NCBI RefSeq assembly: GCF_019649055.1
Contig: NW_026570357.1
Location: 186,001 to 250,000 of the forward strand
Reading direction: 5' to 3'
DNA from: Paramacrobiotus metropolitanus
Lineage: Eukaryota; Tardigrada; Eutardigrada; Parachela; Macrobiotidae
Length of the DNA stretch: 64,000 nucleotides
The notes below the pieces were generated by a model, which was not told the origin of the DNA, ran no database searches, and saw nothing but the letters and a program-made list of their open reading frames with translations. Both the position numbers and the translations under genes were made by a program. Of this stretch, positions 4,781 to 64,000 are shown piece by piece. Within the stretch, counting starts at the first letter, position 1. Every line of letters begins with the position of its first letter.

Positions 4781-6373
4781 CTATTGCGCTTTCCCCATAA
4801 TGCAGCGCATAACCGCTGCGGCCAATAGGCTTAGTTTGTTAACGTCCAAACCGGCAATGACCGAAACCGTCCACCGGCAGCGACGATACTGGTTCGACGG
4901 CCGAGGATCCGCGGTCTGATAATCATAGAGAGCCTATAAAAAAACAACACTTCAATTACCCTTCCAGCACCTTGCCCGCATTGGTACGTTTAAAGACATG
5001 ACGAAAAAAATTCTGGAACCTGAGATATAGCCAGGAAAAGTATTTGTAAAGGAGCGAGTGTACTAAGTTGTGGTAATAAAATTAAATACACTGCTGTATT
5101 CTTGTTTACAGCTTGATCTGAAATACTGTGTTCTCTAGAGAATTCTTGTTGTTGTGGGTGTCTGCTGCTTCGAATTAGACTCTGCCCTGAATGTGTGCGG
5201 ACGTTAAACCATTGAACCCAAAACCAACCAGTTTTGCTCACCTCTGTAATGGTTCCCAGTTGGCCGCGCTCGATGCAGTGAGCAATCCATTCCGACAGGA
5301 TGCTGCGATCCACCGGTGCCTCCACAACGATATGCTTCTCAAAGAGATTCCACAGCTGAACTTCCAGCTCTCCTTGCGGTTGGCAGGAGTGCGCCCACTG
5401 CGAGACGACGGACGGCAAATGTTTCTCCTCAATTCGGCACTGCAACCACATTGCGCGATCCGCCATGCTGCAGATTCGCAGGATGCTGCCATGATTGTAT
5501 AACGTGTCGTCCCAAGTCAAACCCGGATACGGCCAGGAACACCGATAGAACACCAGCGTCCCGACGCGGCCGATCAGGTGACGGATCATGGAGGCGGCGT
5601 GGTCGCCTTCGCCGAAATTCATGTGCATAAGAACGATGACCTTGGTGCGACGGGTAACGCAGTGCAGCAGCCCCGCCAGTATCCAGAACCGGGGATGTGT
5701 CCAGGATCGCGGACAGTCCTCGGCCCGCCAGGAGACCCTAACATCCGTGTGATATAATTCGGTGGTGAGCAGAACGTTCCACAGAGCGCAGATGCGCCGG
5801 CAGCGGGTGCGTTTGAGAGAGTCCAGCGTCTGGAGCACCTCCGCCAACAGTTCGACTTGTAACGGGAGGCCGCTGACCATGTGTTTTCTCTTCGCAGCCG
5901 GCATGGCAACCGCGTTGAATGGCTCCTCCTCATCTTGCTGTACCAGGGTCATCCTGGGCACGGAGAACCGGCGCCTCTGAAATTCCTCCGGTCGCACCTG
6001 CCGGCTGAGCAGGTCGACGTCGGAGGGCGGTCGCCGCACTTGTTGCCGCGGTAGCAGCTCCTTGATGACGCCGTACGGGAGCTGCGCCGTGACGAGGTAA
6101 ACACTGCCCAGAAAGCTAAGGCCTCCTTCGAGGACCAATTCACCCGGGAACCACTGCCAAGGTCCATCGCAGGCCGCTCGCAGCAGTACTTGTACAATAC
6201 GGTCTTCACTGGCATTCCAGACAGAAGGCGGTTCGATGGAGTGAAAGAGGCGCCCGTACTCGACAAACTGCGCGCGCTGTTTCCTGCATCGAAAATCAAC
6301 GATCATTCCCTTCTCAGTCACGCTGATCACGCTGCCGTGCTGCAGCCCCGTGATTCTGCCCGTACACAAACAT
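4781..6373 (-). pseudogene. AF family gene 2, intron-1-less, with damaged start
   Basis: Modules 1 and 2 lie in one exon (6373-5242); a GTGAGC donor and a TATAG acceptor join it to exon 3 (4933-4781, 51 codons, opening ALYDYQTADPRPS). The usual boundary between exons 1 and 2 is replaced by a short linker containing MPAAKRKHMV (NLS-like), so intron 1 and the end of module 1 were lost together. The family start ATG with MFVYG is present at 6373-6371, but about 50 bases coding for the AWNxVDVLVDG segment are missing and MFVYG is out of frame with GLQHGSVISV. The remaining frame, open from 6369, covers module 1 (GMIVDF, PWQWFPG, GVIKELLPRQQVRRPPS), the F-box (LQVELLAEVLQTLDSLKRTR) and the tail to WIAHCIERG. 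It could only be translated from a non-canonical or internal start. It may be a young pseudogene or a gene using an unseen upstream exon. Confidence 0.7.
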
Positions 6374-13833: not shown

Positions 13834-15230
13834 GAGTCTGCGTGAGTGTGTATCTGCCTGCTTCCGGATCTTACAGCATGAAAGAGTATTAAGTATTAAC
13901 GTCGCGATTTACAGCAAAACCGAACTAACCGAAGCAATAGAAAAACACACTGGAACACTAGTTTTGTAAATTTTCAGCTTCCGTTGACTCGGTTAAAATA
14001 GACCGAGCAGCATCGCTTATTTTGGAGAACCGGCAGCGGATGAAACGACATCACGCAGCTGTGCGGACTTTACTTTAAAACAAGGGATGGGTTTGCAACA
14101 AACTGTACCAAGGATCGGGTATAAGTAAAGCAGTCAATCGATAGCAGCACAAGGAAGCATTCGGCAATCGGCTGTAGCCTGTAGAAGACTGTATAAACCG
14201 GTCCAGTTTTCAGCGTCAACGTACTATGTAGTACGTGTGTGAGCTGAAATTCCGGTTAGAAAGACCAACGCAAGAGATGAGGCGGGAGAGACTCCGCCGG
14301 GAGGCTTGCGATCTGCGTGTTGACATCATTGCCGGTATGTGATAGAGATTTCTGGAATTGAGTTATGCGAGCAACGAGTAAGCGTTACGTTACGCAAGCA
14401 GGGAGGGAGCTGGCAGATTTGCGCTCAACGTGCTTTGAGCGGCTGGCTACAGCGTTGTAAGGATCCAATGCAAGCGTTCATCGCGACGTCGCTTTTTTCT
14501 CCTTCAATGTCGGCTGTTCCTATCATACAGTTGCAGCTGGCGGCAAGCGTCGGATTGTTCGCCCGTTAATAGGCAACGTGAGCTGGGTTTAAACCGCCAC
14601 GAGACATGATTGTTAGTTTTACCCTAGTTATGACAAACTGACATTGCAGTTGAATTTGATGGAACGGGATACCTTTGCAAATGAATCAGCGCAGACAGCG
14701 AAAACCGATCCTAACGCGGTACAGGGGTGAAGTTGAGTTAAACTACCTGAGCATGTCACTTTTGGCATGGGTATTGTGTATCTCACACTTATCCACCGGA
14801 GCGCAATCGTATGCCAGGTTCGAGTCAGATGCCTGTTCGAGTTAGATGCCTGTGGCACCGCACTGCAGCTGATGTGATCGAGCTTCTCGTGCTTTATGGT
14901 GTTGAAAAGAGTACCTTTATTAACCTGTACTCATGACTCACAAGCCTTATGAGTCATGAGTAGAGGTAAGTAACTCGAATAGAGTAGGTGATAACTCACT
15001 AGCTAGATTGAGCTCGAGGTACTGATTGTTGGACGCCTAATGCAGCATTTCATCCATACAACACATTTTAACTTTATTAACTTTACGCTGTACCTTTTCT
15101 AACTCTGTTGCAAGCCGACTTCTAACTCTGTTCCAATCATCAGTGTTTGTGCAGTTTGCACAAAAGCAGAAGCACACAACAGATTTAGATACTTGAAGCT
15201 GGCTGAAATTTGGTGAAAGAAAACTGTAGA
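13834..15230. other. Head-to-head spacer between AF genes 3 and 4
   Basis: This should contain both promoters. The segment from about 14860 onward (CCGCACTGCAGCTGATGTG and TGGTGTTGAAAAGAGTA) is similar to 21620-21690 upstream of AF gene 6, so the duplication of genes 4 and 6 included the upstream flank. No gene is recognised; the open frame at 14339-14569 has no support. Confidence 0.5.
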
Positions 15231-53945: not shown

Positions 53946-54433
53946 CTTGTTTTTTAATAGGTTCTCCTATTTTTGTATAGATTTTGTAGTCTAGATAGTT
54001 TTATTGTATAGATTTTGTAGTATAGATCTTTCTCTTGATAAATGATTCTGCACCTGCACAATCAGTGCGTACACATGTACTGTAATTCTTTAAGACTATT
54101 GGGGATGTTTTCATATGCACTCGTGTTTTTAATAATAAATCCTAAAACTAGATGTTAAAAGTGCCAGATGATGCCGAGAAAAACAACGCTGGTCATACAA
54201 TCTTTGCTCTAACCTGCGCATAACGCTTGATCACATCCTCTCAGCGTTAGAAGATATAGCGCTAGTTTACCGTCAGCTCCGAATCGGTCCGGTTTTCGAC
54301 CGGTCCGCGGTTCGGCTTGTAATCGGTTCGGTTTTCAGTCGGTTTGAACCGGACTGGAGCCGATTGTCCCCTTTCTTTGGTTTATTTTCCCCCACCCTCT
54401 TTTATTTATTCATGACATTTTATTTTATGGTAT
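53946..54433. other. Spacer left of the ARH-BIR gene
   Basis: It includes a CGGTTCGG/CCGGTCCG-rich patch (54285-54365) and, on the minus strand, AATAAA signals (TTTATT on the plus strand at 54381-54410) that fit polyadenylation of the leftward ARH-BIR gene. The left Polinton end may lie here but no terminal repeat could be proven. Confidence 0.4.
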
Positions 54434-55657
54434 TTACAAGTGAAAATATAAATTATCAGGACCATTGGAGGCAGGACAGTTGTGCTTCTTACATAAATGA
54501 TCCCAACGCGGATCAGAGAGAGGCTCAAAATCTCTAAGTTTACAGTTGCAGTAATAACACTGAACACAATCTTGTGTGCCAAAATGAAAAAATCCATCTC
54601 CAGCTAGTTCCATGGGTGAGGGTTTCAGATGTGGCCATCCTTTGAACGATTCCAAACGTGACTCTAAAGTGTCGTAGTTGCCGAAATCATCTATTTCGCG
54701 ATTGGTTAGGGTGTTGCTGGCGTGTTCGGCAAGTTTATCGGCGAGCGTAATGCTGTTCTTGTATCCATCACACAGTTGTAGCCATGCCTGCGGTATACTT
54801 TTGAGACCGTGCCAAGCTCCGGCAATAGCACCCGCCAAGGTTGCAATTCCGTCAGTGCATCCACCAACCCGTATTGTAAGCGCCATGGTCGCTTCAAAAG
54901 CATTTTCAGGCGCCAGACTGGTTCCTTTTAGTACGCAGTAAATAGCCATAGGTACTGCTTCTAGTCCCGCGGAATCATTACCAAGGGCTTTCACCACGAT
55001 ATTTGTTTCTTGCGACAGCAGCGTTTTTAAATGAACTAGTTTTGGTTGATACAGCTGAAGGTTAATGCCTGAGTCACACAGCGTGATTAGCATGTCCAGA
55101 AACTGTTCTGGAGTAAAGTAGGGGTATTGTAGGGCTACGGCAATAGCGTAGGCTTGAAGTTCACATGCTCCGTAAGCTTCCATTGCGGGATGTGTGAGTT
55201 CGGCAACGCTACGTACGTTGCGGATCATCAGCTCTGTCTGATGTCTAAAGTAAAGTGGGTACGCTGGAATCCACGCAGCTGGGCCGTATCCTTTGAGGAA
55301 CGTTTTCGGTACAATGTTTTTCGGTAATGTGTCAAAGGTGTTGTAATTGCTCCACTTCCAGTGATGTATTATATCCTTAAGCTTCCCAAAAGCCGAGCGT
55401 ATGACGGGATGTGCGCTGTAATAAGCTTCAACGCACGCTCGAGCGGCAGACACTGCATCATAACCCCCATCATCCAGCAATGCATTACCCAGCGCGTTTG
55501 TTAAGACGGTCTTCTTACGATAAGAGCGGTAGTCTCGTGTATCAACGAACAACTGCGCAACCTTGTGAACAATGCCATGATACGCCTCCAAGGGAACGCA
55601 TAAGCATTCCCCCAGCATACCCCCAACTAAGCAACCACGAAATTGGTCCTTCTCCAT
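54434..55657 (-). CDS. ADP-ribosylhydrolase (ARH3-type) fold fused to a BIR domain
   Basis: Intronless 407-aa protein. Residues 1-285 follow the ARH/DraG fold: FRGCLVGGMLGECLCVPLE at the N-terminus, ELTHPAMEAYGACELQAYA near 153-171, GNDSAGLEAVPMAIYCVL at 226-243 and GGCTDGIATLAGAIAGAWHG at 265-284. Active ARH3 enzymes use a TDDT motif and GGDTD to bind metal; here the first is replaced (TVLTN at 50-54) and the second reads GGCTD, so hydrolysis is doubtful and ADP-ribose binding without cleavage is possible. Residues about 331-396 form one BIR: ESRLESFKGWPHL, LAGDGFFHFGTQD and the zinc pattern C367-x2-C370-x16-H387-x6-C394. BIR domains in IAP proteins bind caspases or IAP antagonists. It is divergent from the Polinton genes across a shared promoter region; single-exon structure fits a Polinton cargo gene, but a host neighbour cannot be excluded. 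Start: ATG at 55657; AATAAA follows the stop. Confidence 0.85.
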   Translation of the reverse strand: MEKDQFRGCLVGGMLGECLCVPLEAYHGIVHKVAQLFVDTRDYRSYRKKTVLTNALGNALLDDGGYDAVSAARACVEAYYSAHPVIRSAFGKLKDIIHHWKWSNYNTFDTLPKNIVPKTFLKGYGPAAWIPAYPLYFRHQTELMIRNVRSVAELTHPAMEAYGACELQAYAIAVALQYPYFTPEQFLDMLITLCDSGINLQLYQPKLVHLKTLLSQETNIVVKALGNDSAGLEAVPMAIYCVLKGTSLAPENAFEATMALTIRVGGCTDGIATLAGAIAGAWHGLKSIPQAWLQLCDGYKNSITLADKLAEHASNTLTNREIDDFGNYDTLESRLESFKGWPHLKPSPMELAGDGFFHFGTQDCVQCYYCNCKLRDFEPLSDPRWDHLCKKHNCPASNGPDNLYFHL

Positions 55658-56056
55658 TTTCCTTGCGAATGATAGATTTTCCAGTGCAACTCGAGTTTAA
55701 ATATTCTATAGAATAAAGTTACTTTGTTTACAACCAATCACCGCTCTCATTTCTAAAACATTTTTGAGTTTCCAAGCTACGTCACGTACGGTTTAGCCAA
55801 TCGATAGGAGCTTACAGTATATAAGGGCGTAGCTATTTTTCGATTTTTCAGCCAATCATAGATGAAATAAAGTGTTTTTTTGTTTTGAATGACGTAAGTG
55901 TGAAAAAGGCGGAGTCTGATCGGAATTTACGACCAATGGGGTAAGCGGTTGGTTTTCTCAGACACAGCTGGTGAGTATAAAAGCGACGCGACTGGCCTTT
56001 TCCAAATCAGTCTGAAAAAAAGTTGAGAGCAAGTTTTTTGCCATATCTCAAGAGAA
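55658..56056. promoter_or_regulatory. Bidirectional promoter region with CCAAT and TATA boxes
   Basis: Four CCAAT boxes lie at 55734, 55797, 55852 and 55933. TATATAAG at 55818-55825 lies about 160 bases before the leftward ARH-BIR start; being near-palindromic it could serve either strand. TATAAAAG at 55976-55983 lies about 74 bases before the rightward ATG at 56057. Spacing suits eukaryotic Pol II core promoters. The function is inferred from motif and position. Confidence 0.6.
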
Positions 56057-56503
56057 ATGGATTTCGCACGCATTTTAGATGTTGTTGGTGATCATGATGG
56101 CTACACTGTGTACAAAGTCAATAGTGTGGTTAGCCTGTTCTGGAATGCTAAAGAAGTACGGGCATTTCTTGTGTTCGAAGCAAATGCGGATGCTGAGGGC
56201 TTGCGTAAAGCATGGAATAAAGGAATCCGATTCGGATACAATGAAATCACTGAATTGCTAAAGATCCTGAAGAGTGGACATTTGAAAGATTCGCTGGATA
56301 ACGCAGCATCTGAAGGCAAACAGGAGAAAATGAAATTCGATGGCCCCGCTTGCCTGGAATTGACTTTGAAGGTGCACGAAAAGTACGGGCGCACAATCAG
56401 GTTTTCTCAGCCCGGGCGCTCTGTTCAGCTACCATACATGGGATTCATCGATGTGGCTCGAATCTTGGACGATAGCTTTAAAGCGCAATCTCTTATTGTT
56501 TAG
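56057..56503 (+). CDS. Unrecognised 148-aa Polinton protein
   Basis: ATG 74 bases after a TATA box. The protein starts MDFARILDVVGDHDGY and ends with a similar phrase, IDVARILDDSFKAQS, so the two ends echo each other. It is soluble-looking, has no membrane segment and no Cys-rich motif. Its place as first gene after the strong promoter suggests an early or abundantly expressed product. No family is recognised. Confidence 0.6.
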   Translation: MDFARILDVVGDHDGYTVYKVNSVVSLFWNAKEVRAFLVFEANADAEGLRKAWNKGIRFGYNEITELLKILKSGHLKDSLDNAASEGKQEKMKFDGPACLELTLKVHEKYGRTIRFSQPGRSVQLPYMGFIDVARILDDSFKAQSLIV

Positions 56504-56673
56504 CCGCTCTTCTCATGTTTTGTAACACTATAAAAATGTTGCTGTTGTTATTTTTGTTTGTTTTTTATTAGTCCCTTTTGTTATGAGAAAAAAAAAGGCT
56601 GAAAAACGCCATTATTTGCGACAGTCTCAGCAGTGAAGCATATAAAGCCTTCTTGCTGACACTGTTGCAAGTA

Positions 56674-57258
56674 ATGCGTTCAGTCATGGATATCCACAAC
56701 ATTATTCTGGCGGTACAGCTCAACGAAAAAGTTGATCTGCAGCATGTTTTAGAAGTTTTCGGGGAACATGCTACGAAGGTGAAAAATTTCAACGCAGTTA
56801 ACATCAGACTTGTAGACCAGTCACATACATTCTGCCAGATCTTCCAGAATGGTAAGGTAATCGTAATAGGTGGCAAGTCCATAGAAGAATCAAATGGGCT
56901 ATTAGAACAGCATTTAAGAATGTTGAGGGTAAACTGCATCGACGTGACTATTAAGGAGCGCTTTGTGGCAAATATAGTCTGTACGTATGCTTACAGTGAA
57001 ATAATAAATTTAAATAAGCTGTATAGCCAGATTTTGAAAGAAAAGCCAACGGGTGTCGCATTTTTCTATGAACCTGAGCTTTTTCCAGCGATCAAACTGC
57101 GGTTTCCGTTATTGAAAACTACCGTAAACGTTTTCCATACTGGAAAGTGTGTGGTTCTCGGAGCGAGATCACTGTTGCAGATTCAACGCACAATTGAACA
57201 GATTAAAAACCTCCTTGAAAAGTATACCACTACGGTGTGGAAAAGTGAAAAAATCTGA
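56674..57258 (+). CDS. TATA-binding-protein-like protein (TBP fold, two repeats)
   Basis: From the first ATG the protein is 194 aa, the size of a bare TBP core. It has two repeats, residues about 8-85 and 97-182. Repeat 1 has NFNAVNIRL and FQNGKVIVIGGKS; repeat 2 has VAFFYEPELFP and FHTGKCVVLGARS, matching the SYEPELFP and SGKVVLTGAK signatures of eukaryotic TBP. All four DNA-intercalating phenylalanines of TBP have counterparts: F39 and F57 in repeat 1, F137 and F154 in repeat 2. A second ATG at 56686 is equally possible as start; a TATA-like CATATAAAG lies at 56639-56647. It lies between the 148-aa gene and the packaging ATPase on the same strand, so it belongs to the Polinton. Expected role: redirect Pol II initiation to element promoters. 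Confidence 0.85.
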   Translation: MRSVMDIHNIILAVQLNEKVDLQHVLEVFGEHATKVKNFNAVNIRLVDQSHTFCQIFQNGKVIVIGGKSIEESNGLLEQHLRMLRVNCIDVTIKERFVANIVCTYAYSEIINLNKLYSQILKEKPTGVAFFYEPELFPAIKLRFPLLKTTVNVFHTGKCVVLGARSLLQIQRTIEQIKNLLEKYTTTVWKSEKI

Positions 57259-57348
57259 TCGTTTCAAAAGCAACATTTGAGAGTTTTTGCAATTGAGTGC
57301 ATTGTGAAGTGGCCGATAGTTAGCAGCACAAATCAGGAGAAATTAAAA

Positions 57349-57984
57349 ATGGAAAAACTGAGTTTTGATTTCCGCTTTAAAACTCCCTGCGCGATATATA
57401 TTTCTGGTCCAACTATGTCAGGAAAATCGACTTTTACAATGAAGCTCTTGCGAAATCTTACGGAGAGTTTCAATCCACCCCCTGTTAGAATAGTATATGC
57501 TTATGGTACTTGGCAAGATGCCTTCCAGGATTTTGGAAAAGATATTGAACTTGTCCAAGGTCTTAATCCCATCGTAGAAGATGAGAATTTTTTCGACAAA
57601 GACGTCCCGAGCCTGCTAGTTTTAGATGATCTAATGGAGGAAATTGCTGGAACGCCAAGGTGTTCCTCGATTTTCACTCGCGACGTTCATCATAAAAATG
57701 TTTCTGTAACTTTTATATCTCAAAATTTATACAAACAAGGAAGGAGCATGCGTGATATCGCTCTGAATTCTCAGTACTTGGTAATTTTTAAATCAGTTCG
57801 CGATGTTCAGCAAGTTAAAACACTTGCACGTCAGTTAGGTATGCCACATATGCTGGAGGCCTACCGAAAGGCTATAAAGGAACCCTTTGGTTATTTACTG
57901 ATAAACCTTAGACCCGAAGCTCCAGACAATGTTCGTCTTCAGTCGCACGTGTTTGAGTACAGACGCATATATGTAGAAAAATGA
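57349..57984 (+). CDS. Polinton packaging ATPase (FtsK/HerA, A32-like)
   Basis: 211 aa from the ATG at 57349 (AAAAATGG context); the open frame reaches back to 57277 without an ATG. Walker A is GPTMSGKST at residues 20-28 and Walker B SLLVLDDLMEE at about 88-98. SVTFISQNLYKQGRSMRD follows, typical of the sensor/arginine region in viral genome-packaging ATPases of Polintons and poxvirus A32 relatives. It would pump the element DNA into capsids. The stop overlaps the next start by ATGA. No lesion is seen. Confidence 0.92.
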   Translation: MEKLSFDFRFKTPCAIYISGPTMSGKSTFTMKLLRNLTESFNPPPVRIVYAYGTWQDAFQDFGKDIELVQGLNPIVEDENFFDKDVPSLLVLDDLMEEIAGTPRCSSIFTRDVHHKNVSVTFISQNLYKQGRSMRDIALNSQYLVIFKSVRDVQQVKTLARQLGMPHMLEAYRKAIKEPFGYLLINLRPEAPDNVRLQSHVFEYRRIYVEK

Positions 57985-58301
57985 AACCAGAAGAAATTTT
58001 TCGACTTATTGAAGCGTTAAAGCTTCTGACACCACGTCAGAGAAGAAGCTTTTTCCAGCTGGCAACTAAACAACAAATAAGCGCAATCGAAGAAGCCTGC
58101 CTAAACCTAGTTAAGCAACCCACCGGTCTTAGCAAAGTTGATTTAGCTCGGGCTCGAAAACATTCTTCAACAATCAAACGTCTAGCTGACCGCAGTACAG
58201 ACCGTTCAAAGAAACGTAAAACATTGCAACAAAAAGGAGGATTTCTCAACGTTTTGCTTCCAGTATTAGGAACGTTAGTCTCCACTTTTCTAGCAAAATG
58301 A
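57981..58301 (+). CDS. Small basic Polinton protein with hydrophobic C-terminus
   Basis: 106 aa: a helical N-terminus (MKPEEIFRLIEALKLLTPRQ), a basic middle (RSTDRSKKRKTLQQ) and a hydrophobic end after KGGFLNVLLPVLGTLVSTFL. The QKGG-F site resembles adenovirus-type protease cleavage sites, and the released hydrophobic peptide could act on membranes during entry, as similar small proteins are thought to in Polinton-like viruses. It overlaps both neighbours by ATGA (57981-57984 and 58298-58301). The function is inferred. Confidence 0.7.
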   Translation: MKPEEIFRLIEALKLLTPRQRRSFFQLATKQQISAIEEACLNLVKQPTGLSKVDLARARKHSSTIKRLADRSTDRSKKRKTLQQKGGFLNVLLPVLGTLVSTFLAK

Positions 58302-59398
58302 AGACGTACGTTTTAGTTCCCGAAACCGAGTTTTTAAAACAGAAGCATGCTCGGGAAGGTGTTCCCGCGCCGACTGCTTGGAAAAAGGCTCAAGACATTG
58401 GTCATGAAATTACACAGCAGCTCATGGCGAAGGCTGCTTTGGATTACCAGCGTTTAAACAATACGGGTAACGCTCCAGTCGCGACTCCATTGTTGGAAAC
58501 AGTGCAAGTTGAATCTGGTGCTCCTGCTACCAATACATCACCCATAATGATTGATAAAAGTATACAAGCTCATTCTACAGGTGTTCTTAAAGATCAATAT
58601 AGTCAAGCGGGTCCAAACGTAACCCATCAAGTTGTGCAGGCTGTTCCGACATTTCATGAACAGGGTACTCAAGCAACAGCCCCACCGTTAGTTGAATATA
58701 AGTATGTCGAGGTACCATCACAACCAATTGTACAATATGTACAAGTGCCTGGTGAGCCGCAAATACAAGTCGTTCCAAGCAAACCGGTAGTCAAACATGT
58801 TTATCGGAAACCGAAAAAACCTCCTTTGGTCAAAAAAGTCCATGTTAGACGCATTCCGAAATCCGATAACACTTTAAATGCCGCTATAGAATACGCTCCT
58901 ACTCCGCCTAGTGTTCCGATAGTGGAATTTCCTGCTGATGGTGTGTTAGAATATCAAGTACCTGACAATGGATCCGTTCCGGCTGTGGAAAAAAACCAAC
59001 TAGCTATTGAAGGGTTAAAAGCGCTGGCCGTTAAACCGAAAACTTCAAACCGGCTCCGGCAAAAGGACAAAGATCAGCAACTTGCTATTGAAGGGTCGAA
59101 GACGGTGGCAATTAAGCCAAAAACCTCTAACAAGCTCCAAGAGGCCACACCAAAACCTAAGCAAAGGGCTGCAATTGCTAGTGGTTCTCAAAGACTAGCA
59201 ATAGAGGCCAGTGAGAAAGAGCAGGCAGCTATTACCGACACACCGCCGCTTAAGGCTTTAACATTCGAACAATCAAATAAAGCTGAAAGTTCAGGTCAGA
59301 ACAAAATTCAGTTGAGAAAACGTAATAAACCGTCAGGACCTCCCGCTAAAAGACACAAAGGTGGTATACAAAGAGGTGGCTGGCTCTCGTACACATGA
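58298..59398 (+). CDS. Repetitive, Pro/Val-rich Polinton protein of unknown function
   Basis: 366 aa. After an N-terminal helical part it has PSQPIVQYVQVPGEPQIQVV-type Pro/Val/Gln repeats (residues about 125-165), a basic KPKKPPLVKKVHVRR segment, and three copies of a LAIEG-K-A-KPKTSN unit at about 231-310. It ends with a basic KRHKGGIQRGGWLSYT tail that carries GG motifs like those in the flanking small proteins. It could be a virion fibre, scaffold or core protein; no homology is recognised. It overlaps its neighbours by ATGA on both sides. Confidence 0.6.
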   Translation: MKTYVLVPETEFLKQKHAREGVPAPTAWKKAQDIGHEITQQLMAKAALDYQRLNNTGNAPVATPLLETVQVESGAPATNTSPIMIDKSIQAHSTGVLKDQYSQAGPNVTHQVVQAVPTFHEQGTQATAPPLVEYKYVEVPSQPIVQYVQVPGEPQIQVVPSKPVVKHVYRKPKKPPLVKKVHVRRIPKSDNTLNAAIEYAPTPPSVPIVEFPADGVLEYQVPDNGSVPAVEKNQLAIEGLKALAVKPKTSNRLRQKDKDQQLAIEGSKTVAIKPKTSNKLQEATPKPKQRAAIASGSQRLAIEASEKEQAAITDTPPLKALTFEQSNKAESSGQNKIQLRKRNKPSGPPAKRHKGGIQRGGWLSYT

Positions 59399-60466
59399 TG
59401 AAGCCCACATTAGATGATTTGTATTTGAATCCTGTTTCTCAAGGAAGTTTAGGTGGCATAGACCGCTTGTACAAAGAAGCCAGGAAACATGGATATACAC
59501 GAAAGCAAGTTAAGGCTTACTTAGAAACCAAAGACGCATATACACAACACAAACCTTTTCGGTCTAAGTTCAAACGCCGAAAAATTATTTCCGTTAATGT
59601 GGGTGACCAACATCAAATCGATCTTGTGGATTTTCAAAAATTTGCTAGTTATAACGATGGGTTTAAGTATATTCTTATGTGTATCGACTGCTTTTCTCGT
59701 TATGCATGGGCAGAGCCGGTTAAATCCAAACGGCCTGCTGATATTTGTGGAGCGCTTTTGAAAATATACAAGAGTGATTATCCTCCATTACGCGTTCAAA
59801 GCGATAATGGCAAGGAAATTGTTAGTAAAGACATGCGTAAGTTTTTTGAAGAATGTAATGTTACATTTTTTACAACAAAAAACGATGATGTAAAATGTGC
59901 GATGGTTGAACGTCTAAATCGTACCATTGAAGACCGGTTGTATGTGTTCATGACCGAAAACAACACATACCGATTCATAGATATCCTTCCTAAGGTTTTA
60001 TCCGCTTACAATTCTACAAAACACTCGGCTACAGGAGTAGCCCCTAAAGACGTCGGTCCTGATGAAGCTGAGCAAATTCTCCAGAAGATGGATGATGAAC
60101 AAAAAGGTATGAAAAATCCAAAACCAACATTTTCTTTTGGTGATCATGTACGTTTGGCAAAAAAAGAAACAGACATTTGAAAAAGGGTACGAGACTCGTT
60201 TCACAGAAGAAGTTTTTAAAATAACCCACGCTACACGAAGCGGGAGCCATTACCTTTACACGGTCGAAGATTTAGCTGGCGAACCTGTAGACGGTAAGTT
60301 TTATCCGGAAGAGTTATCTAAAGTCACAATGGCAGAAAAGCCATATCATAGGATCTCTAGGATATTAAGGGAAAGGAAACATAAAGGAAAAGTACAATAC
60401 TTAGTACGTTGGTATGGATACGGTCCTGCTTAAGACTCGTGGGAAAACAAAAAAGATTTGAAATGA
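59395..60466 (+). pseudogene. Polinton integrase with chromodomain, frameshift and nonsense
   Basis: A retrovirus-type integrase core: VGDQHQIDLVDF (first Asp, residues 76-79), FKYILMCIDCFSRYAW, VQSDNGKE (second Asp, 137) and MVERLNRT (Glu 172). Near 60163, in a run of seven A, the frame shifts; the continuation holds GYETRFTEEVFKI and a chromodomain (KPYHRISRILRERK, YLVRWYGYGPA). A TAA at 60431-60433 cuts the chromodomain, and the following DSWENKKDLK ends at a TGA (60464-60466) that overlaps the next ATG. The exact ATGA overlap shows the original end. Integrase inserts the element DNA and the chromodomain guides target choice. Two lesions make this copy inactive unless both are sequence errors. 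Confidence 0.9.
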
Positions 60467-61206
60467 GTTTTTACATGACATTGCCGTCTTCGGCGTCAGA
60501 CGGGTTATACCCTGAAAACTGCCCTGGTAAATTTACAACGCTGCTCGCTAGACCTATAGATTTAGACGGTGCGTGGGAAGTAGGTCTTTCGGAAATTATT
60601 CTACCGCCTATGCGGATAAAGTTTAATACCGGATTATCCATTGCTGTCTCGCGTGACGGTATGCCGTCTAGAACTCATAGATTCGTCGATCAACATGCTT
60701 TTGAGGATGAAAATCATTTAATTCGGACGGTTAACAAACTGCTGAGGGAAAACGTAGATGATAGGGACTCGAAAACCTACGGCCAGATAATAGCGAGTGG
60801 TCAAGCAGCTCAGTTAAACATCACGCCGGGCCTCGCTTTAACTTTTACGGGCTCCGAATACGCGCGCGCACTAGGTATACTACACCAGTACACATATAAC
60901 AGCAGAGATGCTCTGTCTCATATGTTATATCCGGGACTGCATAATCGTCTCGTGCATGTGTATTGTGACGTGATTACACATGGGTTGGTAGGCGACTCAA
61001 TGGTGCCTTTACTACGCACCTTATCGACTCAAGCGAATTCATTTCGAGAGACAGTAATTCGTTTTGAAAATCCGCATTATATGCCGCTAGCCTACCATAC
61101 GTTTCAAACTATAGAAATAGCGATGCGCGATGATTTAGGGAAGGAGGTACTCTTTCATCCAGGTACATCAGTAATTAAATTACACTTTCGACCAAAGAAG
61201 CATTAA
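60463..61206 (+). CDS. Penton-like minor capsid protein of Polinton
   Basis: 247 aa from ATG 60463: MSFYMTLPSSASDGLYPEN, then FTTLLARPIDLDGAWEVGL and a C-terminal VIKLHFRPKKH. This wording recurs in invertebrate Polintons next to the major capsid gene, and I take it to be the minor capsid (penton, single jelly-roll) protein; an alternative is an accessory virion protein. The gene is complete, overlaps the integrase stop by ATGA and is followed after one base by the next ATG. Confidence 0.7.
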   Translation: MSFYMTLPSSASDGLYPENCPGKFTTLLARPIDLDGAWEVGLSEIILPPMRIKFNTGLSIAVSRDGMPSRTHRFVDQHAFEDENHLIRTVNKLLRENVDDRDSKTYGQIIASGQAAQLNITPGLALTFTGSEYARALGILHQYTYNSRDALSHMLYPGLHNRLVHVYCDVITHGLVGDSMVPLLRTLSTQANSFRETVIRFENPHYMPLAYHTFQTIEIAMRDDLGKEVLFHPGTSVIKLHFRPKKH

Positions 61207-61593: not shown

Positions 61594-62939
61594 ATGGCTC
61601 TTATTGAAGCTGGCTCAGAACCCTCCATGCTTTTGGAAAGTCACTTGTTTTATCTTCCAGCTACGCTAACGGAAAGGTGGAATACACATGACTATGACTT
61701 GGGCCCGTCTCAAGCCGTAACCGACGATTCAAACGATATTGTATTTACAATTTCACCGTGTCAAACCGAGCTGATCAGCTTAGCTGACATTAGATTTTCA
61801 TGTGATTTACACGTTGCTAATTCTGCTGGTACTGTTCCAACAGAAAAAGACTGTCTTGCACCAATTAACAATATTTTGCATAGTTTATTTCAATCAGTTA
61901 CGGTTTCATTGGGAGGTCGCAACATAACCGATAACAGTCCCTTGTATCACATTCGAGCGTACATTGAATCCCTTCTGGGTTTCACTGTTCAGGCTCAGAA
62001 CAGTCAGTTGAGCTTGTGTGGATTTGCGTTGGACACTGACCTTGACAAAGACTCGTTATACATGAATGAGATAAATGGGGCAACAACATTTCATAGTAAG
62101 GGTGCCGAAACGCGAAGAACATGGTTGCAGACTTTCCGTCCGTTGCAGTTGTCTGGTAAACTACACTGCGATTTGTTCCAGCAAGACCGTCCACTAATTC
62201 CTGGTGTAGAGTTGAGCATTAAACTAATACGAAACAGGGCTAATCTTTGTTTTCTTACTGATAATGATCTAGCGGCTCCGAAGGCTTTTGCTATTCGAAA
62301 CCCCAAGCTGAAAGTTCGAAAGTATGAACCTTCTCCAGACTTTTTAGCAGCCATGACAAAGCAACTAGTCACAACTAATGCAAAATATCACATCGAACGG
62401 GTTGCTTTAAGACAAACCACAATGCAATCAGGCCAGCAGCAACTATCCTGGGCGAATATTGTTATTGGACAGTTACCCAAGGTAATGTTCTTTGCAATGT
62501 CACCCAATCGCTCATTCGTTGGCGATTTTAAGTCAACTCCGTTCAATTTTCATCATTTCAACGTATCTAACTTAAGTGCTGAAATTGATGGACAGCTTTT
62601 TCCTACACGGGGTACAACTTAGATTTCCAGGACGGTGCGTCAATTGAGGGTTATGAAGGGTTGTTAGATACTCTAGAGCGGCTGCATGAAGGTCATGGTG
62701 AACTACCGTTTGACAGGTCCGTATTTAACAAGGGTGGTTTCAATATTTTTGGGTTTGACTTCACTCGCGGCCACACGGGCAGAGGAGCCTTGTCACTGAT
62801 AAGGCAAGGTAATTTAAACATCAATGTTAAATTTGCAAAACCGCTACCTGAAGGTATAGTTTGCATAGCTATGATGGTCTTCGATAACATTATCGAAATT
62901 AACAACAATCGCCAAGTACTTTTCGACTTTGCGCCATGA
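61594..62939 (+). pseudogene. Polinton major capsid protein, single-base frameshift
   Basis: The first frame (342 codons to a TAG at 62620-62622) contains the double-jelly-roll capsid wording SHLFYLPATLTERW, INNILHSLFQSVTVSLGG, LYHIRAYIESLLGF and GKLHCDLFQQDRPLIPGVEL; it resembles proteins annotated as F54H12.2-like in invertebrates. From about 62600, in a G run, the coding continues one base out of frame (LDFQDGASIEGYEGLLD, VFNKGGFNIFGFDFT, FDNIIEINNNRQVLFDFAP) to the TGA at 62937-62939. The total of about 448 codons is normal for the family. The missing base in a homopolymer may be a real lesion or a sequencing error. Confidence 0.85.
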
Positions 62940-64000
62940 ACAGCCTACAAATAGATTCAGCGCTGAAACAAGATCCTAACGTTCGCGACATTTTTGTCGG
63001 AGTATTTGCCAGTGATACGATTACTTCAGGATGGCCAACCGGGTATGCCTTGGTCTTGTTTACGAATGGGTACAAGCTAACAACGTCATAGTGCCTAATT
63101 TCTTCGTCATCTTTCACTTGGTAATACAAACGACTGGCATTCGTTCTGCCTCCTTTGAAGGCGTCACGAGGATTCATTGGCTCACGAATGTTCATATTTA
63201 GCAGAAATGCGGCAATATCCGGATCTTGTCGTTCTTTAAGCCACTCACAGCTCCATTTCACCTCCACAGTGTATCCCTGACTTTCAAGGAAGCGTTCGCG
63301 TTCCTGGAACTCTTCGTAAACTTCGCGCATTTTCTTCTTGGAGTATGGTACAACATCGTTTTCTTCAGTACAGAAAGGATGTCCATGGAAGACGCAGCCG
63401 TTATACTCGTAAACGGTTTGTGTCTCCTTGTCAAAACCGTCTACAAAGTATCGCCCAATTTTAACTTCTTTACCGTTCCGACCATGGCGTATACGGCCGT
63501 TTGCGCTCATGTTCTCCCATTCCAGCCATTGCGTGGCTTGAATACTAGTCCGTCGGTTTCGGTGCGGTCCGTGACTGGATAACGCGGCAACTTTGTTCTC
63601 GGGAAGGTGAAACATTCTCCAGTACCGGTAGCAGGCCGAAGGCATGGTCATACTTTCCGTTGGATTCAGCGACGTCAGAGCTTGGTAATCGCTGATAAAC
63701 TTTAACGCACACACACGCAAAACCGTAACATCGTTCGAGCAATATGTCATCATCTGCTCGCGAAAATTGAACACCCCATTGGCGGCCGCTTTAGCTTCAG
63801 CGTGCCACTTAAGAAATTCTTCTTTTTGCTTTCTTCGCATTCCATCAATCATATACTGTTCCGGCTCGGGCCAGGGCAAATCAGTTTTATCCCAGTTTTC
63901 AGGCTTATTAAATCGATGTGGGAAGTCGCCTTTCTGCACTTCGATTTCCAGATAACCGCTTTTGGTAACTGACTCAACTTCAAAGCCAGAAAGTTGAGGG
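62940..64000 (-). pseudogene. Polinton protein-primed DNA polymerase B, C-terminally truncated, partial
   Basis: The frame enters from the right edge and runs left. It has the exonuclease motif YCSNDVTVLRVC, an ACYRYWRMFHL region, VYEYNGCVFHGHPFC (a nuclease-like insert), FKGGRTNASRLYY and palm motif A, HYDVVSLYPFVNK. Just after YPVGHPEVI the family pattern ends near 63040; the frame then runs through unrelated residues to a stop at 62899, inside the end of the oppositely directed capsid gene. Palm motifs B and C and the thumb, several hundred residues, are absent from the window. The enzyme should copy the element from a protein-primed end; this copy cannot. It is convergent with the capsid gene. 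Confidence 0.88.

Follow-up and report, generated by a model that had tools for sequence, protein, structure and literature searches.

A diverged TATA-binding protein gene is carried by a Polinton lineage in the tardigrade Paramacrobiotus metropolitanus

Results

The window analyzed here (i.e., 64,000 nucleotides of the P. metropolitanus assembly GCF_019649055.1; contig NW_026570357.1, positions 186,001 to 250,000) contains the left part of a Polinton. The element starts with a terminal inverted repeat (TIR; 54249 to 54409; 161 bp), the inverted partner of which (151 bp; 91% identity; 10 gap positions) ends at C137:260957, giving an element of approximately 20,709 bp. The TIRs are flanked by a 6-bp target-site duplication (TSD; AGCGTT), with the left copy at 54243 to 54248 and the right copy just outside C137:260957, past the window end. 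Most of the other copies in the genome start matching the window at position 54249 (i.e., at the TIR start). Six-base-pair TSDs composed of different hexamers were also found in the elements on C146 and C25, and all three elements checked are clean insertions. The TIRs, the 6-bp TSD, a family B DNA polymerase (PolB) gene, and an rve integrase gene mark the window element as a Polinton; with the ATPase and capsid candidates described below, it has most of the Polinton gene set, the capsid part being putative.

The first gene after the left TIR (54434 to 55657; reverse strand) encodes a 407-aa protein in which an ADP-ribosylglycohydrolase domain (Pfam PF03747; E = 2.5e-30) is fused to a BIR (i.e., inhibitor-of-apoptosis) domain (PF00653; E = 2.5e-13). 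An anti-apoptotic or anti-ADP-ribosylation function is possible for this protein. In a related element, the BIR protein occurs alone, without the glycohydrolase fusion (L026:3119-3733). On the forward strand, a box reading TATAAAAG (55976 to 55983) precedes the gene for a 148-aa protein of no named family (56057 to 56503; no Pfam match; homologs in elements L025 and L026), and a second box, ATATAAAG (56640 to 56647), lies upstream of a TATA-binding protein (TBP) gene (56674 to 57258); a like box at equal spacing is present in L049 and L060. The TBP gene is followed by a candidate for a DNA-packaging-type ATPase (57277 to 57984; first ATG at 57349), which has weak Pfam and PHROG matches, had no match in the PDB below an E value of 0.2, and represents a conserved family within this genome.

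The next genes, all on the forward strand, encode a 106-aa protein (57981 to 58301), the homologs of which adjoin the ATPase in other elements; a 366-aa protein (58298 to 59398), the Pfam match of which (PF23886; E = 1.9e-5) is barely over the cut-off and probably reflects composition; and an rve (i.e., retroviral-type) integrase (59395 to 60180; PF00665; E = 1e-13). The chromo-like part of this integrase is in another frame (60137 to 60433); rve and Chromo share one frame in the relative L026. A 265-aa protein (60409 to 61206), which has homologs in other elements and no family match in Pfam or PHROG, is a minor-capsid candidate by position only. The frame of the gene that follows (61594 to 62622) is broken and resumes at 62661 to 62939, while in several close relatives it is a single open frame of 466 to 474 aa; it had no Pfam, PHROG, or PDB match, and we infer its major-capsid label from position and length only. 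The PolB gene (62899 to 64000; reverse strand; PF03175; E = 4.2e-22) runs past the window end. An adenovirus-type protease scored barely above the cut-off in the relative L017 and was not identified in the window element. In the window copy, the capsid candidate is interrupted (62622 to 62661) and the integrase and chromo frames are split (60137 to 60180); the TBP gene is intact. Outside the element, the window contains a fragment of a 28S rRNA gene (14461 to 14611; forward strand; RF02543; 93 bits).

The open reading frame (ORF) at 56674 to 57258 is unbroken and translates to 194 aa. A first-pass annotation had described it as a protein with both TBP repeats, and this description is borne out: the Pfam TBP profile matched it in two stretches corresponding to both repeats (E = 4.3e-26; 91 bits; cut-off, 22.9), and a profile of 41 element TBPs matched eukaryotic TBPs in the PDB over nearly the full core length (E = 1.1e-39 to 2.2e-35) and archaeal TBPs as well (E = 8e-33 to 2.6e-28), the first non-TBP molecule appearing only at an E value of 0.54. 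When the window protein was used as a single phmmer query against the PDB, 38 matches were returned at E values of ≤10. TBPs and fusions containing a TBP account for the 35 best chains (E = 4.4e-11 to 5.6e-9; one is labeled only "ECU04_1440 protein"), and the three remaining matches had E values of ≥0.63; no other fold gave the best structural-database match. The sequence signatures that had been noted are all present (i.e., YEPELFP, two GK..GG/GA motifs, and F39, F57, F137, and F154). The four phenylalanines line up with yeast Phe 99, 116, 190, and 207, the intercalating positions of TBP-DNA structures. Judged from these profile, PDB, and residue matches and from the tree described below, the window gene is a two-repeat member of the TBP fold family. 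Homology among the relatives starts at the second ATG (56686), and the in-frame first ATG is common to only some of them; the second ATG may be the true conserved start.

Across the 170-Mb assembly, 150 scored matches to the Pfam TBP profile were obtained among 493 candidates; 138 contain no internal stop, and 12 (one in the host gene) contain stops. The Pfam list and the matches to the window-protein query, merged at 3 kb, gave at least 194 TBP-like loci, a figure in which broken copies and the host gene are counted too. Matches listed for the element ATPase, PolB, or capsid candidate lay within 5, 10, and 20 kb of 152, 174, and 176 of these ≥194 loci, respectively; the DNA within 10 and 20 kb of the element matches listed amounts to 3.3% and 5.8% of the genome. 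Conversely, a TBP was listed within 20 kb of 90 of the 110 PolB loci (the other 20 being without one) and of 97 of the 109 loci of the window-type capsid candidate. Polinton genes were present at all 17 TBP loci whose surroundings (up to 10 kb) were read; these loci were hand-picked from the Pfam list, with the window and the host gene kept apart and one locus (L020) cut by a contig end, and all TBP copies with readable gene context belong to one genome. That the TBP gene belongs to the Polinton, as first proposed, is supported by its location inside the TIRs and TSD and by the proximity of element matches to TBP-like loci within 10 kb. It is not a stray host exon, because it lies inside a 20.7-kb Polinton bounded by TIRs and a TSD; the many copies and the existence elsewhere of an intron-bearing host TBP likewise rule out a stray exon or a chance neighbor.

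No element match was listed within 20 kb of 18 TBP-like loci. Among these are the host TBP (C4) and L040 (C66:349000-349900), a divergent TBP-like ORF away from the listed element matches that is possibly a host TBP-related factor. Two others (C185:142922 [L022] and C140:250272 [L024]) have no listed element match within this distance, yet they showed Polinton genes on reading. The assignment of the other 14 of the ≥194 loci to this class is by coordinates.

At the loci read, the TBP gene occupies three positions: immediately upstream of the ATPase in the same orientation (position 1; the window, L025, and L026), divergent from the ATPase (position 2; L015, L016, L019, and L023), and between the capsid candidate and PolB (position 3; e.g., L017 and L027). 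In most copies with positions 2 and 3, a conserved ORF abuts or overlaps the TBP start (22 of the 32 loci with enough upstream DNA); it was not seen before the TBP gene in the other 10 loci, which include those of the window kind, namely L009, L020, L024, L025, L026, L035, L037, L038, L040, and L041. Examples of this ORF are L017:4406-5122, L015:5147-5617, and L011:5578-6090, with the motifs LDxDWF...HSHGLxW...KGLEK...GCP. There was no significant Pfam match for the three ORFs checked and no PHROG match for the one checked (i.e., that of L017). Coupled translation of the upstream ORF and the TBP gene is possible. In L013 and L014 the two share one frame, which arises where both loci diverge from their relatives close to the junction, so that mutation or assembly error is as likely as a fusion.

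One element group (L011, L013, L017, L020, L027, and L028) carries a PC4-like protein gene between the capsid candidate and the TBP gene. Six of eight proteins chosen by position matched Pfam PC4 at E values of <0.001 (three of the eight over the cut-off), and 8 of the 10 PC4 matches in the genome are within 2 kb of a TBP gene. PC4-type proteins can also act as single-strand DNA-binding proteins, and the PC4-like protein could be either a cofactor or a protein of that kind. The TBP frames of L026 (4620-5741), L034, and L046 extend at least 100 to 190 aa beyond the TBP domain, with TBP as the only Pfam match above the cut-off.

The host TBP gene (C4) has an intron ahead of the core, and its product falls within Metazoa in the tree; over 151 residues, the window TBP and the host TBP exon share 28% identity. 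Close to the 5' end of the host core exon (L021, about position 5120; reverse strand), the frame appears to be broken, with one TAA in the Pfam match; this is perhaps an assembly error. No COX1 gene was found in the assembly. A homolog search with the window protein alone returned no match at an E value of ≤1e-3, and a search with the element TBP alignment returned 188 matches. As the family of relatives, we took the best 56 among 120 listed of these 188 (P0122 to P0177; E ≤ 2.9e-34), a line that we set ourselves; 17 of the 56 were used in a first tree, 10 in a second tree, and 46 (i.e., those of 160 aa or longer) in residue counts.

In the first tree (maximum likelihood; 65 rows), the window TBP grouped with 34 copies from elements and 17 relatives from metagenomes in one clade (support, 100/99). 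The branch leading to this clade has a length of 1.2 changes per site, and within the clade the metagenomic and element rows are intermingled. The second tree (47 rows, with a TBPL1 row added) recovered the same clade (100/99). Both trees, which were built without giant-virus and mirusvirus TBPs, carry warnings of long branches, and the single TBPL1 row is on a long branch. On this grouping, we regard the element TBPs as one old family that is also represented in metagenomes, and because of the long branch, the element TBP is not a recent copy of the host gene. In a topology test, the p-AU values were 0.103 for the host TBP joining the clade, 0.103 for Metazoa, and 0.53 for TBPL1, and none of these was rejected. 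The phylogenetic comparison with the host TBP, recommended at the outset, therefore gave a divided answer: the element TBPs form one clade apart from the host TBP, but a join with the host TBP, Metazoa, or a TBP-related factor was not rejected.

These data bear on whether the gene is a host TBP-like paralog that lies beside the element or was recently picked up by it, a reading that we consider highly improbable and that is largely excluded for the window copy. The p-AU value for the host TBP is in its favor, as is a database record titled merely "TATA-box-binding protein-like [Paramacrobiotus metropolitanus]" (P0169). The first 113 of the 131 residues of this record are those of the L013 element copy. 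The gene is nevertheless enclosed by TIRs and a TSD and repeated in elements at distinct places, and the intron-bearing host gene stays in Metazoa while the element TBPs group with metagenomic relatives on their long branch.

Scans of IMG/VR for relatives of the element TBPs returned none; canonical TBPs found none there either, though viral TBPs are known, so this absence says little. The capsid candidate had no match in IMG/VR, and PolB had one distant match, in a 316-kb contig.

Among intact copies, the median dN/dS of the TBP gene alone was 0.16 (range, 0.07 to 0.73), based on the 34 pairs with a dS of 0.05 to 1.5 among the 595 pairs of 35 intact copies. Because the same copies recur in several pairs, the pairs are non-independent; the highest value belongs to a distant, saturated pair, and the choice of copies by TBP score and open frame favors low dN/dS and flatters conservation. 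On these estimates, the intact element TBP copies appear to be under purifying selection. Some TBP copies are heavily broken; others, with TBPs that are 97 to 98% identical, have clean TSDs. It is improbable, in our judgment, that the TBP genes are non-functional relics of past elements. The interrupted capsid candidate and integrase of the window copy and the stops in 12 of the 150 Pfam matches would fit relics; the 138 stop-free matches, the low dN/dS among intact copies, and the near-identical copies with clean TSDs, which point to fairly recent movement, would not. Pairwise TBP distances were correlated with those of PolB (r = 0.94; 9 loci; 0 of 5,000 permutations as high) and of the capsid candidate (r = 0.79; 11 loci; 3 of 5,000 permutations as high). 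Since the TBP distances track those of PolB, the TBP gene travels with the element core.

We compared the contact residues of the 41 element TBPs with those of canonical TBPs, using yeast numbering and the residue roles of TBP-DNA and TBP-TFIIB structures. The intercalating positions are kept (F99 in 40 of 41; F190 and F207 in 41 of 41), with position 116 (F57 of the window protein) being Phe in 12 and Tyr in 29 copies. The central asparagines are also retained (N69 in 38 and N159 in 39 of 41; both in the window), as are several phosphate-contact residues. For contact with TFIIB, E188 is kept in 39, L189 in 31, and E186 in 21 of the 41 copies, and the window protein has E, E, and L at the three positions; since position 186 is not Glu in 20 copies, the TFIIB contact may differ between lineages. 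The TFIIA-contact lysines 138 and 145 are each Lys in only 5 of 41 copies.

The DNA-reading groove is changed. L114 is replaced by Q and T215 by L in all 41 copies, S118 by N in 38, T124 by N in 37 (by I in the other 4), V203 by T in 34, and V122 by T and V213 by N in 28 each. The canonical set of TATA groove contacts (i.e., Thr124, Thr215, Leu114, Val122, and Val213) is not found in the window TBP, which has I124, L215, Q114, and I122 and retains V213. The 46 longer metagenomic relatives show a like pattern (e.g., T215 to L in 44 and T124 to N in 45). As predicted contacts, these changes bear on the claim of TATA reading, not on the fold.

For comparison with the plant TBP variant TBPm3, we took plant positions 152, 161, and 163 to be yeast 194, 203, and 205, an equivalence assigned by spacing. 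The TBPm3 changes at these plant positions (Ile to Phe, Val to Thr, and Leu to Val, respectively) are reported to permit use of a TGTA box (PMC4466886), and a review describes triple mutants of the second TBP repeat that read TGTAAA (PMC10005294). V203T and L205V occur together in 16 of the 41 element TBPs and 33 of the 46 metagenomic TBPs but not in the window protein, which has T203 with N205. The third change, I194F, was found in 0 of 41 element and 0 of 46 metagenomic TBPs. The shared changes are a lead to an altered specificity suggested by residue identity, not proof of it.

The TATA-like boxes that the first-pass annotation had placed at 55818, 55976, and 56639 are present in the window, the third at 56640 (ATATAAAG). 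A putative initiator-like TCAGTC, read by eye, follows the TATAAAAG box at a distance of 33 bases (its A is at 56009). The proposal that the element TBP would naturally act on ordinary TATA boxes such as these is not supported, given the changed groove residues and the counts at element genes: among 93 element starts defined by homology, a TATA-type motif was present between -130 and +30 in 12 in the sense and 9 in the antisense orientation. Without the MCPc and chromo queries, which are internal pieces (17 of the 93), the counts were 9 and 6 of 76, respectively; 8.6% of random 160-mers contain such a motif. There was no general enrichment of TATA motifs before these 93 starts, and widespread TATA boxes as targets of the TBP are not supported on this ground.

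A few promoters (i.e., those of the 148-aa gene and the window-lineage TBP gene) do have a TATA-like box. The box before the window-lineage TBP gene recurs as TATATAAAG or CATATAAAG in L009, L049, and L060, at -45 to -47 from the conserved ATG. L026 and L034 have a TATA box at -86/-87 before the TBP gene, and TATTTAAR or TATAAATAG precedes the ORF upstream of TBP in some groups only. Because that ORF abuts the TBP start at 22 of the 32 loci, the promoters there are to be sought further upstream. No single alternative promoter motif common to the element groups was established.

Changed groove residues and element genes without general TATA enrichment would also be expected of a decoy or competitor, which would bind TFIIB, initiation factors, or host promoters and damp host transcription (e.g., of defense genes). 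The largely kept TFIIB-contact positions beside a changed DNA-reading surface agree with such a protein, and the BIR domain in the window element could fit host suppression. We still consider a decoy unlikely: a pure decoy would need none of the intercalating aromatics, the central Asn pair, or the phosphate contacts that are kept, and a core function fits better with a TBP gene that is present at most of the counted element loci and co-diverges with PolB.

It is unlikely that the TBP fold has been reused as a DNA-bending protein of the element for replication, packaging, or integration (e.g., for TIR binding). Bending alone gives no reason for keeping the TFIIB motif E-P-E-L, which is intact in the window and largely so in the family, and we know of no use of a TBP for bending in replication, packaging, or integration. 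Such a role would accommodate the changed groove residues, the PC4-like neighbor in one element group, and the fact that the gene mostly overlaps the conserved upstream ORF in two groups.

The Pfam TFIIB profile gave six matches at three loci in the genome. None is linked to an element, all three loci being on contigs with no listed TBP or element match, although a very divergent TFIIB could escape this Pfam search.

Discussion

In this study, we describe a Polinton lineage that has its own diverged TBP. We consider it probable that the protein is a private TBP of the element, with an altered preference, which takes over from the host TBP at the promoters of the element and works with the TFIIB and RNA polymerase II (Pol II) of the host. 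The TBP gene would be an old part of the element lineage rather than a passenger. Its product would substitute for the host TBP in binding and bending the core promoters of the element, with a sequence preference that has probably changed, and its TFIIB-binding stirrup would recruit host TFIIB and Pol II, so that the element genes would be switched on by a factor under the control of the element. We infer from sequence that the protein binds DNA, has an altered target, recruits TFIIB, relies on host Pol II, and benefits the element. The first-pass suggestion that the element steers Pol II to its own promoters thus survives as the best reading (given the TFIIB motif in the window copy, the selection, and the finding of no element-linked TFIIB with Pfam), but without TATA boxes as the targets. 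A fuller version of this private-TBP reading is plausible but more tentative: the lineage may have acquired a TBP once, long ago, and rebuilt its DNA face in a partly TBPm3-like manner to serve private promoters on host Pol II and TFIIB that are orthogonal to the host TBP, with a PC4-like cofactor in some lineages.

The element shares its TIRs, 6-bp TSD, PolB, and rve integrase with Polintons/Mavericks and adintoviruses (i.e., their viral form), as does its relative L026 the chromodomain on the rve integrase; the ATPase of the element and the adenovirus-type protease of L017 are candidates for further common features. It differs from them in having a TBP as a standing gene. The first reading knew of no TBP described in Polintons, and we found no earlier report of one in the open-licence literature searched.

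Compared with the cellular TBP (i.e., the TFIID subunit), the element TBPs have the same two repeats, four intercalating aromatics, central Asn pair, and YEPELF stirrup. Unlike it, they have no N-terminal region, T124, T215, L114, and S118 are replaced, V122, V203, L205, and V213 are often replaced, and the TFIIA lysines are mostly lost. TRF2/TBPL1 is likewise a diverged TBP paralog, and a sister relation to it was not rejected in the topology test with the one long-branched TBPL1 row. In the product of TBPL1, a single cellular gene, three of the four intercalating sites are not Phe, whereas the window TBP keeps all four. The element TBPs also offer a natural parallel to engineered TBPs of altered specificity: they share V203T and L205V with TBPm3 in part of the family but differ from it in the missing I194F, in T203/N205 of the window copy, and in many other groove residues.

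To our knowledge, general transcription factors are rare on small mobile elements. The first-pass statement that giant viruses encode TBPs agrees with two reports, which place TBP among the genes conserved in Mimiviridae and their relatives (PMC3620924) and in Bodo saltans virus (PMC5871332). One survey gives TBP in 59% of mirusvirus and 0% of Nucleocytoviricota genomes (PMC10132985), and TBP is reported to be sporadic in the mirus-like elements of Cymbomonas (PMC10675990). Giant viruses and mirusviruses thus resemble the Polintons described here as DNA viruses with their own TBP; they differ in being large, in having protist hosts and no Polinton gene set, and, in several cases, in encoding their own RNA polymerase. 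ORF24, a herpesvirus mimic of TBP, and VITF-3 of poxviruses are reported to stand in for TBP at viral promoters (PMC12529657 and PMC12917281); these are described there as mimic or atypical partners, whereas the element protein is recognizable as a TBP by sequence.

For annotation, our results are a warning that a gene labeled "TBP-like" in this host may belong to a mobile element. The many natural TBP variants with changed DNA contacts would permit a direct test of how TBP specificity evolves. If the private-TBP reading is true, the retention of a TBP by selection across many lineages would imply that Polintons can set their own start sites and perhaps evade the transcriptional control of the host.
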